In this document: piece by piece, positions 33,797 to 62,269 of the stretch | How positions within the stretch are numbered: the stretch's first letter is position 1 | How the letters are laid out: each line of letters opens with the position of its first letter | NCBI RefSeq assembly: GCF_019195395.1 | Contig: NZ_CP078067.1 | Span: 989,248 to 1,053,247, forward strand | Origin: Kaistella faecalis | Lineage (GTDB): Bacteria > Bacteroidota > Bacteroidia > Flavobacteriales > Weeksellaceae | DNA length: 64,000 nt | Direction of reading: 5' to 3' | The notes under the pieces: model-generated | What the model was told of the DNA's origin: nothing | The model's database searches: none | What the model saw: the letters and a program-made list of their open reading frames with translations, nothing else | Position numbers and translations under genes: made by a program

Positions 33797-33856
33797 TTTG
33801 TCCACCATTTGTCCACCCCTATTTTTATATTTTTTACTGTATTCATTTTAGATTTG
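33797..33856 (+). promoter_or_regulatory. Promoter with tandem TTTGTCCACC boxes (operator candidate)
   Basis: Two identical TTTGTCCACC boxes (33797-33806 and 33808-33817) repeat at an 11-nt period, about one helical turn. Exactly 31 nt later comes the -7 element TAGATTTG (33849-33856), followed 28 nt later by the ATG of the T9SS protein. No TTG is present at the -33 position, so activator dependence is plausible. The same box pair, 31-nt distance and TAGnTTTG element precede the T9SS metalloprotease at 62209-62269. Confidence 0.7.
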
Positions 33857-33884: not shown

Positions 33885-34709
33885 ATGAAAAAATCTTTCT
33901 TCCTCGGTCTTTTAGGTATTATCTTCTCCACAATGGGGTATGGACAAACCAGTACTGAAACTTTTGAAACCGAATCTCACGGCAGTAAGAGTTTCACAGA
34001 CAATGGTGTAATTTTTACAATTATTACCCACACCGGTGGGTTTGATATTCAGGGAAACTACCCTGGTACAGGCTGGAGTGGAACGTCAAATGACAACAGA
34101 TATATCGACAATTCCGGCGCCGGCAATGTAGTTACAAATGCATCATTCAGTATTAAAACAACTTCCAATTTGTTTAAAGTAAACAGATTTTGGATATTTC
34201 TTTCCGATACCAGTCTCAATCAAACGGTAGCGGGTACTCTTACGGTCACCGGCAAAATAAATGGTGTCACCAAATTTACACAAACTAAAACTACAGGTTT
34301 TGCCACTTCTTTGGGTTCCACTAATGGACACACTTTAATTGACCTCACTAATCTTAACGGACAAAACTATAGTAATATAGTTATAGATCAACTTCAAATT
34401 ACTCTAGGTGGAGCATATGTCTACGCAGGATTAGATGCTTTTACCTGGGTGAAAGATTCCGGAATTGTATTGGCCACAGAAGACACACAAATTTCTGGCA
34501 AACTGAAAGTTTATCCCAATCCTACCCATGGAGAATTGAATATTGATATTAACGGGAAAAACGCAGCGCAGATATACAGTTCCGAAGGTAAGCTTGTAAA
34601 AACAACCTACTTGAAAGATGGCCATAATAGAACCAATATAGATGAACTTCCAAATGGAGTATACCTGATCAAAGTGGGCACAGAAACGAAAAAAATAATT
34701 AAAAAATAA
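33885..34709 (+). CDS. Small secreted protein with T9SS type A sorting domain
   Basis: The 274-residue protein has a signal peptide (MKKSFFLGLLGIIFSTMGYGQ). A central all-beta domain follows (about residues 25-195), rich in Thr, Ser, Asn and Gly with Trp/Phe-containing strands, resembling a lectin-like or carbohydrate-binding sandwich. A T9SS type A sorting tail from about residue 205 begins LKVYPNPTHGELNI and ends GVYLIKVG then IIKK. No catalytic motif is visible, so adhesion or binding is the likelier role. It is monocistronic, with the tandem-box promoter described above and a bidirectional terminator. Confidence 0.87.
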   Translation: MKKSFFLGLLGIIFSTMGYGQTSTETFETESHGSKSFTDNGVIFTIITHTGGFDIQGNYPGTGWSGTSNDNRYIDNSGAGNVVTNASFSIKTTSNLFKVNRFWIFLSDTSLNQTVAGTLTVTGKINGVTKFTQTKTTGFATSLGSTNGHTLIDLTNLNGQNYSNIVIDQLQITLGGAYVYAGLDAFTWVKDSGIVLATEDTQISGKLKVYPNPTHGELNIDINGKNAAQIYSSEGKLVKTTYLKDGHNRTNIDELPNGVYLIKVGTETKKIIKK

Positions 34710-56556: not shown

Positions 56557-58281
56557 TTGAATTTAGCTTTACCAGTAAGAAACTTAAAGATGCTTTTTTT
56601 AGGTTTTGTATTCTTCAGCCTTCACTCTCATGCTCAGACAAAAAATGAGATAGAAAAGATAAATTCCATACTTGGGGGCATAGAAACCTCTTACGACAAA
56701 ATACCGGATATTGTCTCGTTTATAAATCAAGAGGCGAAAAAACACGGATTAAAAGATAAATCGATCCAACAAATTATCGTATATAATCTTGAGGCTCAAA
56801 AAACTGCAGATCTTTCTAAAGGTATAAACACAAAAAGTACAACACAATTTCTCAAAGCCATCAATCTGGCGGAAAAGAAAAAATTACAGCATCTGCAAAC
56901 CTGGTCGGAGATCTCGTATGCTTTTTATCTCTATACCTACAGAGAGATAAAAGACGCTTATCCGTATTTTCTGAAAAATATAAAACGCGTAGAGATGAAT
57001 GATTACGAGTTTAAAATTTCACCTGCTGTATCTTATAAAAAAGTTGGCTATTTTCTCAATAATATTAATGAGTTTCAAAAATCCAACGTTTATCTTCTGC
57101 GGGCAGAAAAAATATCTGCAAACCCGACCTCAATCAAATCTGCTCTGCACGATAATATCGCTATAAATTACTGGCATCAGAAAAAGTATGACAGTGCAGG
57201 ATACCATTATAATATTGCTGAAGAAATTGCTTTAAAAACCAACGATAAACTACGTTATGCAAAAATTTTGGGCAACCGTGCCCTGATCTCTATTGATCTG
57301 AAAAAATATGACGAAGCCGAGAATTTCTTATTGAAGGATATTAATATCACCGAAAAGATACAGGATGAGAAAAATATGATGTTTGCCAAGGCTTTATTAG
57401 CCAGACTATATCTGAAAATAAAACGATACAATGATTGCCAAAAGTATGCAGATGAAGCGTTAAAAATAGCTGACTCCAGCCCCTATTACAAAAGCGAAAA
57501 GCTCGAAATACTTGATCTGAGATTTCAGCTGGCGAAAATTAAAGAAGATGCTCAAGAGGAACTTTTTTTACGAAGAGAAATGGATCGCACCTCCGAAGAC
57601 CTCAAAAAAATGGATGGGCAGGAAAATATCAATCAAATCAACTGGAAAAGCCGGCAAGAGATTTTTGAGTTAAAAATTGATGCGGAAAAATCAAAAGCCG
57701 AAAAAGCATCTATTCAAAAGACTTTAGCCATTATACTTTCGGGCTGTCTGCTGCTTACTGTGTTTTTTTTCAGGCATCGTATCAAAGACAAATATAAAAT
57801 CGACAAGTCTGAATATGATAAAAAAATACTCGCATTAATGCTTGAAAAAGCAAACTCCGAAAACAGACTCAATACTTCCCGAAAAACCATTGATACCTTC
57901 AAAACTTATCTCAGAGAAAAAAACAAACAAATTGAAGAACTAGAAAGTACAGTTTCTAACATCAATAATTTTTCCAAGTCTTACATGGAAGAGAAAACAA
58001 CCGTGTTGCAAAGCCTCCTGCAATCTCACCTGATGACAGCGGAAAACTGGGATCTTTTCAAAACCAATTTCATGCAGGAGTATCCGGAATTTTATAAAAA
58101 CATCACTGATAATTTTGATGATCTTACCGAAGCCAACCTTCGGATGATCTTTCTTACCAAGCTGGACCTTAAAAATACCGAAATTGCAAGAATTCTAGGT
58201 GTTACCTTGGAAGCGGTAAAAAAATCCAAACAACGTTTGCGGAAAAAATATTCCGGTATGTTCGACGAGCTTTATCAATAA
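56557..58281 (+). CDS. Transmembrane TPR sensor with C-terminal LuxR-like HTH domain
   Basis: The 574-residue protein looks like a one-component membrane regulator. An N-terminal export signal or anchor (about residues 1-27, FLGFVFFSLHSHAQ) precedes a helical TPR array (about 40-350) expected outside the inner membrane. One transmembrane helix (KTLAIILSGCLLLTVFFFRHR, about 387-407) leads to a coiled coil with Lys/Glu repeats (about 415-470) and a C-terminal helix-turn-helix (about 525-567: LTEANLRMIFLTKLDLKNTEIARILGVTLEAVKKSKQRLRKKY). This architecture is common in Flavobacteriia. The start is uncertain: a TTG at 56557 gives a better basic N-region than the ATG at 56590. It converges on the T9SS metalloprotease gene across a shared terminator. 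Confidence 0.83.
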   Translation: MNLALPVRNLKMLFLGFVFFSLHSHAQTKNEIEKINSILGGIETSYDKIPDIVSFINQEAKKHGLKDKSIQQIIVYNLEAQKTADLSKGINTKSTTQFLKAINLAEKKKLQHLQTWSEISYAFYLYTYREIKDAYPYFLKNIKRVEMNDYEFKISPAVSYKKVGYFLNNINEFQKSNVYLLRAEKISANPTSIKSALHDNIAINYWHQKKYDSAGYHYNIAEEIALKTNDKLRYAKILGNRALISIDLKKYDEAENFLLKDINITEKIQDEKNMMFAKALLARLYLKIKRYNDCQKYADEALKIADSSPYYKSEKLEILDLRFQLAKIKEDAQEELFLRREMDRTSEDLKKMDGQENINQINWKSRQEIFELKIDAEKSKAEKASIQKTLAIILSGCLLLTVFFFRHRIKDKYKIDKSEYDKKILALMLEKANSENRLNTSRKTIDTFKTYLREKNKQIEELESTVSNINNFSKSYMEEKTTVLQSLLQSHLMTAENWDLFKTNFMQEYPEFYKNITDNFDDLTEANLRMIFLTKLDLKNTEIARILGVTLEAVKKSKQRLRKKYSGMFDELYQ

Positions 58282-58361: not shown

Positions 58362-61300
58362 TTACTTTTTAATCACTTTCTTAATGACTTCCCGGTTTTC
58401 GGAAGTGAGTTTTACCGTATACACACCTGTCGGAAACTGCTGTGTATTGATGCTGGATTCTTTAGCATTTAGGTTTTTATTAAAAATTAAACTGCCCGTG
58501 GCCGAATAAATTTTAATATTGGTAATCATTGCATCATTCTTTACATAAAGCACATCTCTGAAAGGGCTTGGATAGATCGCCGCTGCTTTATTAACATCCT
58601 GGGATGTGCCTAAAACCGCCTCTATGGTAATATTAAACTCTGCTCCCATCGTTCTGCAGTTACCGTTGGATGAAACCGGATAGTATTTTCCTGTCACCAA
58701 AATATGATTATTTGCCAGCGGATTTATATTAGCATTAGCATCACTTTGGGTTGCATACCAAGTTACGTTACTAGGGTTTGAGATCTCAATATCTGATACT
58801 TTACTGCCATAAGGCAATGTTTGGTTGGTATTTCCCGTAGGTGCATCAGGATAAGCCTTTATGTTCAGTGCCACAAAAGATGTTCTTACAGACTCGCAGT
58901 TATTGGTTCTTCTGCTTACGTAATAGGTAACACCTTCTTTCACAATGGTAGAGGATTCCAGTTGATTACCGGCAACAGCTGCGTCGTACCATCTTACCTC
59001 TCCCGTACCCGAAACAACAACATTACTTAAGCTTAAAGCGCCTTCGCAAGCGGCGGCTGGCTGTGTTACGGTTGGTGCAGCGGGTATCTCATAAATGCTG
59101 GTCGCGGTAAACGAAGTTCTTGCCGATTCGCAGCCATTTGGATTTTGAGTGACGTAGTAAGTTTCATTAGGTTCGATAACTGTAGTTGCGGGTAATATAT
59201 TTCCACCCGTCGCACTGTTGTACCATTTAAGATTGCCACCTGTAACGCTAAGCTGACCCAATGTGAACTGACCAGCACAAGTTGCAGCTGGTTGTGTTAC
59301 TAAAGGTGCGGCAGGTAGATCATAGAATTGAGTCGCGGAAAAAGCAGCTCTTGCCGATTCGCAACCGTTAGGGTTTTGAGTAACGTAATAGGTCTTGTTA
59401 CGTTCAATAACTGTGGTTGCAGGTAAAACATTTCCACCTGTTGCGGCACTATACCATTTATGATTGGTACCCGCGACACTTAGCTGACCCAGAGTGACCT
59501 GACCCGCGCAGATTACTGCAGGCTGTGTAACCGCTGGTGCGGCAGGAACAGCAACAATACTGACTTTTACAGGAACTAAACTACTGGTACAACCACCGGT
59601 ATCGACTTTAGTAATGTAATAAGTCTGACCATTGGTAAGAGTTGCGGTGGAGGCCAAAGGATCATAAGCTGTAGTGCTTGCATACACCAATATCGTGGGT
59701 GAGTTTATTTTAGATATTAAATCACTTACTTTATTTACACCACAGAGCACGATCGTCTGGTTCGCCGTAACCGGCGCGGATATTGTGCATTGTCTTTCCG
59801 ATGCGCCCAAATCGATAGTGCTATTTACGATTCTCGTTTTAGCTTCAACATCCTTTGGGGATTTTACAATATTGGCAGACACATTTATGTAAAGTTCATT
59901 TTTACCTTTGTTTATCGCCGGGCTTGAACTTGACAATCTATAGGTATTCTCCAGTTGCGGATTTTGATTGTAAGTATCGGCTCCTTTTGTATAGTATTGG
60001 AAAATATTAGACTTAATGTTGCCGCTGTTTCTGGTAGAGAAATCACTTTCAGAAAAATTGAAAGAAAACTCACTGTTTAATGTTCCGCTATTATTGGTGC
60101 TCGTATTATTGTAAAAAATATTATTCGAGAACTTCACCGTAATATTATGATTAAAACGGATCGCACCACCATCGCTGGCTTTATTATTAGCAATTGTACA
60201 GTTGATCAATGTAAGAAAGCCTCTGTTATTATTCGTATCCGTATATATTGCTCCACCATCGCCATTACTACCGGCTTCATTCAGGGTGAAGACTACATTC
60301 TGAAAAACAGGTTTTGAGTCATTAAGCATGTACACCGCACCTCCCCGGTTTACAGAATAGTTATTTTTGAAAATACTGTTGGTAATAGCTGGAGATGAAT
60401 TGTTCATCAGTATTCCGCCGCCATACCGGTGATCGATTGTTTGACCGTTGATGCTAAAACTGTTATCGTTTACAGCATTACCATTCATTATTGTAAATCC
60501 GTCAAGCAAAGCTGCTCCAACATCTCCTGCGCTTACTACTACATGCGCGCTTACTTTTCCGCCATCTAAAATCGTTTCATTTTGACCGGTTTTTCTTTGT
60601 TCCAGTCTTGTTTCATCACCATTGAAACCACCATATAACTGTACATCCTTCACGAGTACAAAAGCTCTGTCTCTGGTCGCTCCGCCGCCATATTGATGGG
60701 TAGGGACGTGAGTTCCTTTTTGCACCCAAACCTGAACAGGTATAGTAGCATTAAAATTGCTTACCGACTGGTTATTGTGCAAATATTTTAATACATCGGT
60801 TAGATTACCGGCATTGGTCCAGGAAGTTCCGTCTCCGGTAGCTCCTGGTTTCACATAATAAATCCTTGAACTGGTGAAGCAAGTTCCAGCAGCTACATTG
60901 TTTCTGATTACATTTCCCGGCTGCGTGCCAAATCCCAATGACAGATTAATGCCCACGGAAGGCTGTGTGTGACAGTAACTCATAATGGTTCCGCCATTAG
61001 CCGCAGGCATAGGACCATTAGGACACGTAATAGAAGTGTTCCACGGATTGGCTTCCGATGGCACACACCCGTCAATTGCGGTATTATTACCATTCCAAAA
61101 GCAACTTTGTGTATGAGGCGAACCCAGATTATGACCAATCTCGTGAGTGATCACTTCCACAGTCCAGGAATAAGTCGGAACATTACTATAAGAATCGAAT
61201 AGGCCTGAAAACGCGTGTTTGTTACTGCTAGTACAAGAACTATAATAAGCACGGCCTCCAAACTGAGATTTCAAGTTGACGAAGTGTGCCAGATCTCCGT

Positions 61301-62186
61301 CAAAGCTTGCTCGGTTTTGTCGGAATTTCGGCAATAAGTTAGCTGAACTAGTTTCGTTTGCATACGGATCTACAGTTGTCCATACGTAGACCTTGTGCAA
61401 ATCTACCCGCAATCCTTCGTTATAATATAGCGTACTTACATTATTGTGAATAGCATTAATCCAGTTCACGGTTTGTTCCACGGAACTTCCTTTGGCTCTA
61501 TAAATATCATTGGCGACTTCATAATAAATTCTAACCCGTTTATTAGTATGCAAAGCTTTGTCGGCACTAATATTTTGTGTTGGATACACAGGCATAATTT
61601 CCTGGTCCTCGGGTGTGCCGCAAACAAAACCAAAGTTATCCTTCAATGAAGCGGATGAATAAAAAACATATTCATCAGAGTTTTTAGCTTTGGCTAAAAC
61701 GATATTACCCAGACTTGGCGAAGAAATAATGCCTGCTACATTATCGTCAAAAATACTGAGCGTTACAGTAGAATGATGATCACCATCTATAATACCACGG
61801 TAATAAATCCCCGTTGAATATTTTTGAGTAGCGGAAACATTCGTTTCTACCAGGATATCATTTTGAACAACCTTCAAAAGTTCTACATTAATGTTTCCTT
61901 TGTTAAATGGAAGAGTCAAACTCAAGGCTTCATCTTTAGTATGAATGAGGGAAGATAAGCTGGCTTTATTGAGTTCTAACACGACACCTTCGGAAAAAGA
62001 AGTCTGATATTTCTGCTGCTTGTTAGCAACGGCCTGTGTAAATAAGGAGACCGTTTTAAACGCATTCGATTTCCCCGCCTGCGATTTGTACGCGGAAATA
62101 TCCTTAGCAATCGGAGGTAGGTCATGTTGAGCCCAGATATATCCAAAGCTCAGGTGTATTACAATTAGTAACAAAATTTTTCTCAT
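58362..62186 (-). CDS. Large secreted zinc metalloprotease with parallel beta-helix, repeated Ig-like modules and T9SS sorting tail
   Basis: The 1274-residue exported protein has a signal peptide (MRKILLLIVIHLSFGYIWAQ) and a metzincin catalytic domain with zinc motif HEIGHNLGSPH near residue 350 and Met-turn candidate GTIMSYCH near 400. A right-handed parallel beta-helix region follows (about 450-790: repeated GGAVYMLND, GGAIYTDTN, GGAIRFNHN units). Next come Ig-like modules of about 78 residues (about 880-1110), two of them nearly identical (GQLSV, KWY, ATGG, LPATTVIE, TYYVTQNPNGCESAR), with a more divergent third. The C-terminal T9SS type A tail starts IYPSPFRDVLYV and ends VIKKVIKK. Its promoter carries the tandem TTTGTCCACC boxes at 62248-62269. 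Confidence 0.92.
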   Translation of the reverse strand: MRKILLLIVIHLSFGYIWAQHDLPPIAKDISAYKSQAGKSNAFKTVSLFTQAVANKQQKYQTSFSEGVVLELNKASLSSLIHTKDEALSLTLPFNKGNINVELLKVVQNDILVETNVSATQKYSTGIYYRGIIDGDHHSTVTLSIFDDNVAGIISSPSLGNIVLAKAKNSDEYVFYSSASLKDNFGFVCGTPEDQEIMPVYPTQNISADKALHTNKRVRIYYEVANDIYRAKGSSVEQTVNWINAIHNNVSTLYYNEGLRVDLHKVYVWTTVDPYANETSSANLLPKFRQNRASFDGDLAHFVNLKSQFGGRAYYSSCTSSNKHAFSGLFDSYSNVPTYSWTVEVITHEIGHNLGSPHTQSCFWNGNNTAIDGCVPSEANPWNTSITCPNGPMPAANGGTIMSYCHTQPSVGINLSLGFGTQPGNVIRNNVAAGTCFTSSRIYYVKPGATGDGTSWTNAGNLTDVLKYLHNNQSVSNFNATIPVQVWVQKGTHVPTHQYGGGATRDRAFVLVKDVQLYGGFNGDETRLEQRKTGQNETILDGGKVSAHVVVSAGDVGAALLDGFTIMNGNAVNDNSFSINGQTIDHRYGGGILMNNSSPAITNSIFKNNYSVNRGGAVYMLNDSKPVFQNVVFTLNEAGSNGDGGAIYTDTNNNRGFLTLINCTIANNKASDGGAIRFNHNITVKFSNNIFYNNTSTNNSGTLNSEFSFNFSESDFSTRNSGNIKSNIFQYYTKGADTYNQNPQLENTYRLSSSSPAINKGKNELYINVSANIVKSPKDVEAKTRIVNSTIDLGASERQCTISAPVTANQTIVLCGVNKVSDLISKINSPTILVYASTTAYDPLASTATLTNGQTYYITKVDTGGCTSSLVPVKVSIVAVPAAPAVTQPAVICAGQVTLGQLSVAGTNHKWYSAATGGNVLPATTVIERNKTYYVTQNPNGCESARAAFSATQFYDLPAAPLVTQPAATCAGQFTLGQLSVTGGNLKWYNSATGGNILPATTVIEPNETYYVTQNPNGCESARTSFTATSIYEIPAAPTVTQPAAACEGALSLSNVVVSGTGEVRWYDAAVAGNQLESSTIVKEGVTYYVSRRTNNCESVRTSFVALNIKAYPDAPTGNTNQTLPYGSKVSDIEISNPSNVTWYATQSDANANINPLANNHILVTGKYYPVSSNGNCRTMGAEFNITIEAVLGTSQDVNKAAAIYPSPFRDVLYVKNDAMITNIKIYSATGSLIFNKNLNAKESSINTQQFPTGVYTVKLTSENREVIKKVIKK

Positions 62187-62208: not shown

Positions 62209-62269
62209 CAAAACTAAAGTTACTAAGAAAAAATACCTAAAAAGGGCGGTGGACAAAGGGGTGGACAAA
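62209..62269 (-). promoter_or_regulatory. Promoter with tandem TTTGTCCACC boxes (operator candidate)
   Basis: On the minus strand two identical TTTGTCCACC boxes (62269-62260 and 62257-62248) repeat at a 12-nt period. Exactly 31 nt later comes the -7 element TAGTTTTG (62216-62209), 22 nt before the ATG at 62186. No TTG lies at the -33 position. The arrangement duplicates that at 33797-33856, 28 kb away. Confidence 0.7.

Follow-up and report, generated by a model that had tools for sequence, protein, structure and literature searches.

A tandem pair of ten-nucleotide boxes was found upstream of two genes for T9SS secreted proteins in the window, the whole stretch of 64,000 nucleotides from Kaistella faecalis that was analysed. 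With a probability of roughly 0.83, this pair serves as operator for a family of TPR-HTH proteins, which would activate genes for T9SS cargo and a conserved small RNA. The operator word, its geometry, its targets and its genomic linkage to the regulator gene were observed directly in the genomes compared.

Tandem operators and promoter geometry

The first operator (33797..33817, + strand) consists of two TTTGTCCACC boxes at 33797-33806 and 33808-33817, separated by a single A and repeated with a period of 11. The -7 element TAGATTTG (33849..33856, +) follows 31 nt past the operator, with a predicted transcription start at about 33861. The gene downstream (33885..34709, +) encodes a 274-aa secreted protein with a T9SS type A sorting domain (TIGR04183, 45.2 bits, cut-off 23). 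The second operator (62248..62269, - strand) has the same two TTTGTCCACC boxes, at 62269-62260 and 62257-62248, here with the spacer CC and a period of 12. Its -7 element TAGTTTTG (62209..62216, -) is also 31 nt past the operator, the predicted transcription start is at about 62204, and the gene (58362..62186, -) encodes a 1274-aa M12B-like metalloprotease with a T9SS type A sorting domain (PF13688, 1.3e-16; TIGR04183, 42.1 bits). The preliminary description of this DNA had given identical 10-nt boxes with an 11-nt period at the first site and the same boxes at the second. The identity of the boxes holds, and the period of 11 is restricted to the first site. The reported distance of 31 nt from the second box to a TAGnTTTG -7 element was read from the sequence at both sites. 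A -33 TTG had been described as missing, which is correct for the two window sites and wrong as a general feature, since TTG is present in nearly half of all sites.

A sequence-only promoter model, R1, was constructed from 28 aligned sites. R1 matched the first operator with an E value of 8e-13 and the second with 1.7e-11, both sites being themselves part of the model. A -7 element with at most one mismatch was located 30-32 nt past the second box in 31 of 31 Kaistella sites and in 34 of 37 other sites, compared to 1.4 and 2.0, respectively, in mononucleotide shuffles. Thirteen of the 37 other sites were found by R1, which includes the -7 box; the box itself identified the remaining 24 as well as the Kaistella sites. 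L296 was omitted from this count, being the same place as L225. In PMC9723704 the flavobacterial sigma-A box TAnnTTTG is placed at -12 to -5. On that basis the operator spans about -64 to -44, immediately upstream of the -33 element.

The geometry had earlier been thought to fit a dimeric activator. The fixed spacing is indeed activator-like, and activation itself is what we infer from it. TTG was present 7-9 nt past the second box in 13/31 Kaistella sites and 17/37 other sites; such promoters could fire unaided, as they would if the operator were correctly assigned and the regulator acted as a repressor from -64 to -44 until a signal comes. Repression is nevertheless unlikely, because the operator is entirely upstream of the -33/-7 region at a near-constant distance, the usual place of an activator, and because TTG is absent in over half of the sites.

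Targets of the operator

Five R1 sites at E<1e-7 were found in the K. faecalis genome, the next best match having an E value of 0.018. They precede the genes for a 571-aa protein and a 338-aa protein, the 33885 gene, the 62186 metalloprotease gene and one short transcript. All four protein targets (274, 1274, 571 and 338 aa) carry T9SS type A tails (TIGR04183, 42-58 bits, cut-off 23), of which 53 are present in the genome. The chance of four out of four is about 2e-7, calculated with an estimated total of about 2,400 genes. The regulon of T9SS secreted proteins proposed in the preliminary description was thereby supported, with four of five promoters before T9SS-tail genes and one before a short transcript, and scans across genera agree.

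An orthologue of the candidate regulator described below (E<=1e-100) was present in 16 of the 36 Kaistella genomes. Weaker matches in G005, G017, G021, G025 and G032 seem to represent other TPR or HTH proteins. R1 at E<1e-7 gave 31 matches in the 36 genomes, all within the 16 with the regulator; no such site was found in the 20 regulator-less genomes, where the best E value was 0.008. Since 28 of the 31 sites were used to build R1, the clean result of the 20 genomes is the informative half of this comparison. By manual reading, a short transcript follows 17 of the 31 sites, and a protein gene the other 14. T9SS tails were assigned to 12 of the 14 protein targets (five by profile scan, seven by likeness), and the other two, identified by reading, are a 103-aa ORF in G028 and a 217-aa secreted protein in G011. 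In 9 of the 16 genomes no kind of target other than the short transcript was found, and the small RNA is the commonest target in the genus. In K. jeonii and K. chaponensis the small RNA promoter is the one promoter found.

Targets with their own box were also found in other genera. A 276-aa T9SS protein of G151, a genome of another genus, shares 63% identity with the 33885 protein along the whole length of the latter, and the gene of this homologue has a perfect box pair with TACATTTG at 31 nt. The 33885 protein also shares 56% identity, across 260 residues, with the beginning of a 1479-aa T9SS protein from Myroides odoratimimus, whose gene is preceded by a box of its own and, 32 nt past it, by TACTTTTA. 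Several loci of Flavobacterium and Myroides, and one with the label Pedobacter, have a large T9SS-type gene as target. Type A tails scored over the cut-off in L182, L188, L239 and L241 and type B tails below the cut-off in L181, L184, L190 and L244. Not all targets are T9SS cargo: no tail was found in the Flavobacterium protein of L199, the one scanned from a set of 290-296-aa proteins, or in a 622-aa protein of G152. In L222 an MCE protein is the next gene past the short transcript, and no ORF of 90 aa was found within 900 nt downstream in L185, L187 and L189. Separately, two small ORFs that follow the operator (103 aa, L015:4683-4994; 106 aa, L207:7087-7407) both contain the motif EFVxWMRK.

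The candidate regulator

The candidate regulator is encoded by a gene of 574 aa outside the window (G000:C1:2198860-2200581), near the small RNA promoter. It has an apparent signal peptide, a TPR superhelix, a membrane helix and a C-terminal helix-turn-helix (HTH). An AlphaFold model of the protein had a mean pLDDT of 82 and a pTM of 0.59, and residues 478-571 contained helices only in one AlphaFold model, made from 14 rows. An OmpR/PhoB-type operator, an idea derived from the 11-bp period, was rejected because a winged helix needs beta strands and the HTH model is all helical. Towards PF08281, the sigma-70 region 4 type HTH, the regulator scored 20.7 bits with a gathering score of 25.7. It had no match to PF00196 (GerE), towards which three distant relatives scored 18.9-21.7 bits, below the gathering score of 23.5. 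A search of PDB sequences with the HTH returned mostly designed repeat proteins first, followed by a sigma factor (0.04) and response regulators (0.45 and 0.66). Residues 168-561 aligned with NF053779, the BT3442 family, at 50.9 bits, far from the cut-off of 940 for membership.

The genome encodes two TPR-HTH paralogues. The second, a 574-aa protein with a TTG start as listed (56557..58281, +), is 30% identical to the candidate regulator and lies tail to tail with the metalloprotease gene. This paralogue may use the same operator. In G027 the metalloprotease promoter is present with only one regulator. The counterpart of the window paralogue in G035 (G035:C11:76052-77611) has one in-frame stop and may be decaying. 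No description of the regulator, the operator or the small RNA was found in the open-licence literature.

Linkage of the operator to the regulator

Relatives of the regulator were collected from 77 named loci in Kaistella, Chryseobacterium, Epilithonimonas, Empedobacter, Flavobacterium, Myroides, Pedobacter, Sphingobacterium and others. The linkage scan covered 63 of the 77 loci, the 14 Kaistella or near-Kaistella loci being excluded. In 22 of the 63 loci the Kaistella word, with at most two mismatches, was located on the divergent strand, no more than 700 bp upstream of the regulator. Elsewhere in the 968 kb the same word occurred twice (L239 and L241), both times before T9SS genes, and the reversed word gave no matches. 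With a wider word, [TAG][TA]TGTCC[AC]CC, which was partly learnt from these loci, a box was found within 1 kb in 33 of 63 loci, and all 33 had a -7 element at 30-32 nt. The remaining 30 loci had no box within 1 kb upstream (wider word, at most two mismatches); two of them, L239 and L241, carry a box in another part of the locus. At three or more mismatches reversed-word matches appear, five near and three elsewhere in the wider-word scan; for the Kaistella word at four mismatches, two were near and three elsewhere. One Flavobacterium clade has a weaker variant of the box with TAnnTTCG at 31 nt. In a midpoint-rooted tree of the regulators (74 of the 77 loci, three being too short) box-bearing loci numbered 47 of 74 and were found on both sides of the root, and the box label changed 10 times compared to 22.3 in shuffles. 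This suggests that the association of box and regulator is old, with losses or changes.

An order-wide sample of 296 genomes contained the regulator at E<=1e-40 in 13. R1 at E<=1e-6 matched 7 of these 13 and 1 of the 283 others (G165); three of the seven are Kaistella genomes used for R1, and outside the genus the count is 4 of 10. At E<=1e-3, with stricter search filters, the numbers were 10/13 and 17/283, leaving three of the 13 regulator genomes without a match. In a distant family (f7) the box adjoins more distant TPR-HTH genes. Here it precedes two T9SS proteins in G270, and in G152 the 622-aa protein without a T9SS tail and a 514-aa protein with one; G217 resembles these two by appearance. 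In G250 (L293:5401-9289) a TPR histidine kinase and its partner response regulator lie behind the box. This response regulator shares the C-terminal HTH region of the candidate regulator (28% over 139 residues, E 6e-18), and the HTH domain has apparently been swapped between proteins of the one-component and the two-component type. Eight C-terminal HTH ends of this kind were aligned. That the HTH region is found on a different sensor while the box is retained provides good evidence, albeit from a single case, that the HTH reads the box.

G165 has two strong promoters, L286 and L287, one of them before a 1241-aa T9SS protein. No regulator orthologue was found in this genome, in which other TPR or HTH proteins gave no more than partial matches (best E value 4e-13). 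Such a genome would be expected if another, unlinked transcription factor bound the box, with the TPR-HTH gene as a mere target or neighbour. That explanation is quite unlikely given the linkage of box and regulator in 22 of 63 loci from many genera, against two matches elsewhere in 968 kb, the split of the Kaistella genomes into 16 and 20, and the box before a response regulator with the same HTH region in G250. A likeness of the gene that neighbours the regulator in G151 is present in G165, where no regulator gene lies beside it.

Box pair compared to chance

It is the pair, and not the single box, that exceeds chance. The exact pair with a spacer of N0-3 was found twice in the K. faecalis genome (one contig of 2,658,401 bases) and in 8 of 60 genomes (K. 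faecalis included), all eight belonging to Kaistella. The reversed-word control gave no pair in K. faecalis or in any of the 60 genomes, and the earlier view that a box pair with common geometry would be unlikely by chance was confirmed by these counts. Single boxes with one mismatch numbered nine in the window against a shuffled mean of 4.05, and 2 of 100 shuffles reached nine. When up to three mismatches were accepted, the word broadened to TTTGTCC[AC]CC, and across several families the degenerate word is [TAG][TA]TGTCC[AC]CC. A functionless coincidence, by chance or from repeats, would agree with the just twofold excess of single boxes in the window and is extremely improbable in view of the absence of the reversed-word pair from all 60 genomes and the retention of the word, the spacing and the distance to the -7 element in several families.

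The recurrent matches TTTGTTCACGTTTTGTCCACC and TTTGTCCTAAnGCTTTGTCC and an array in G022 were set aside, as they deviate from the word and are not listed by R1; they were omitted without assigning each to a gene. The array (G022:C1:352794-358622) holds nine TTTGTCCnnnnnnTTTGTCC-type matches, mostly TTTGTCCCGYCCTTTTGTCC, on one strand within 6 kb, a different word and perhaps a repetitive gene. A match in G003 (C31:6824) was discarded, being located behind a tRNA and having neither CC ends nor a -7 element.

The small RNA

The fifth R1 target in K. faecalis, probably a small RNA, is a short transcript (C1:2196043-2196105) with a terminator-like hairpin at its end and a predicted start at about G000:C1:2196041 (-). 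The element A-N-CACAAA-N-G is common to 15 copies from 13 genomes, an alignment which omits G016 and G028, where the transcripts end in other terminators. In the consensus fold, made up of a 5' stem and the terminator and based on 6 of the 15 copies, this element is unpaired. Seven of 22 pairs were changed on both sides, other pairs were broken in some copies, and net covariation was nil (+0.06). Most copies contain an ATG, and its loss in K. faecalis and G035 speaks against a coding role of the short transcript. Versions of AACTAATAACCA and ATGATGAAAA with a terminal hairpin were found in Chryseobacterium, Amniculibacterium and one MAG. The small RNA had no Rfam match at gathering scores; the only two matches were Flavo-1 RNAs (RF01705) elsewhere, at L097:347-442 (-) and L195:12767-12867, within 10 kb of two regulator genes.

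An antisense target was considered and rejected, the reverse complement of the conserved part matching only itself exactly in the K. faecalis genome. With three mismatches it matched eight places, compared to two for the reversed control. On the opposite strand, three of these eight places read ACACAAATGATGAAAAAAA, resembling translation starts.

Proposed mode of action

The candidate regulator would be a membrane-anchored one-component protein, with a signal peptide, a periplasmic TPR superhelix, one membrane helix, a coiled coil and a cytoplasmic all-helical HTH. The cytoplasmic part would span approximately residues 466-574. The HTH is probably of the sigma-region-4/LuxR sort, with Pfam scores below the cut-offs. 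We infer that the protein binds the operator directly and as a dimer, with the topology given here and in response to a periplasmic signal. The TPR domain would read the periplasmic state, and the two HTH heads of the dimer would occupy the region from about -64 to -44, next to each other and on the same face of the helix. The bound dimer would recruit sigma-A RNA polymerase to the TAnnTTTG promoter, often with a weak -33 element. The predicted outputs are T9SS cargo genes, for adhesin-like proteins and the metalloprotease, and in Weeksellaceae also the structured small RNA, which in most cases is oriented divergently to the regulator gene.

A doubtful extension of this mechanism is a self-monitoring T9SS loop. 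The periplasmic TPR domain might read cargo peptides or tails, the HTH might switch the cargo genes via the tandem box, and the divergent small RNA, with its unpaired start-like part (ACACAAATGATGA), might serve as a decoy that tunes translation of secreted proteins.

Relation to known systems

In Porphyromonas gingivalis, PorY/PorX-SigP, a two-component system with an ECF sigma factor, acts on T9SS machinery genes according to PMC8050853 and PMC7712824. It resembles the system described here in that regulation is tied to T9SS, and the CTD-bearing surface protein PorA signals to PorY/PorX-SigP. The PorX site reported in PMC8050853, ATT-N8-AAT, differs from the tandem TGTCC[AC]CC operator, and by inspection it is absent from TTTGTCCACC-N-TTTGTCCACC. 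The BT3442 family resembles the regulator as a TPR protein, with a score far under the cut-off. BT_3442 is a multi-domain TPR protein, for which no regulatory role is given in the accessible section of PMC2954219. Activators of the LuxR/GerE and sigma-region-4 type share the C-terminal all-helical HTH and an operator upstream of the -33/-35 element. They differ in that the present regulator has an apparently periplasmic TPR sensor behind a membrane helix, and its Pfam scores are below the cut-offs. The likeness to the Rap/NprR peptide-binding TPR sensors is one of fold similarity only. Rfp18 of Flavobacterium psychrophilum is a small RNA affecting metalloproteases (PMC9723704), comparable with the present small RNA in being flavobacterial and connected with secreted proteases.

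The choice of T9SS cargo in Bacteroidota is little understood, and the PorXY-SigP route, as described, acts on the machinery. The present analysis provides an operator, a candidate regulator family, its targets and a new small-RNA family, in genera that include Kaistella, Chryseobacterium, Flavobacterium, Empedobacter and Myroides. This opens cargo regulation to direct tests and gives many unnamed TPR-HTH proteins a role that can be tested.
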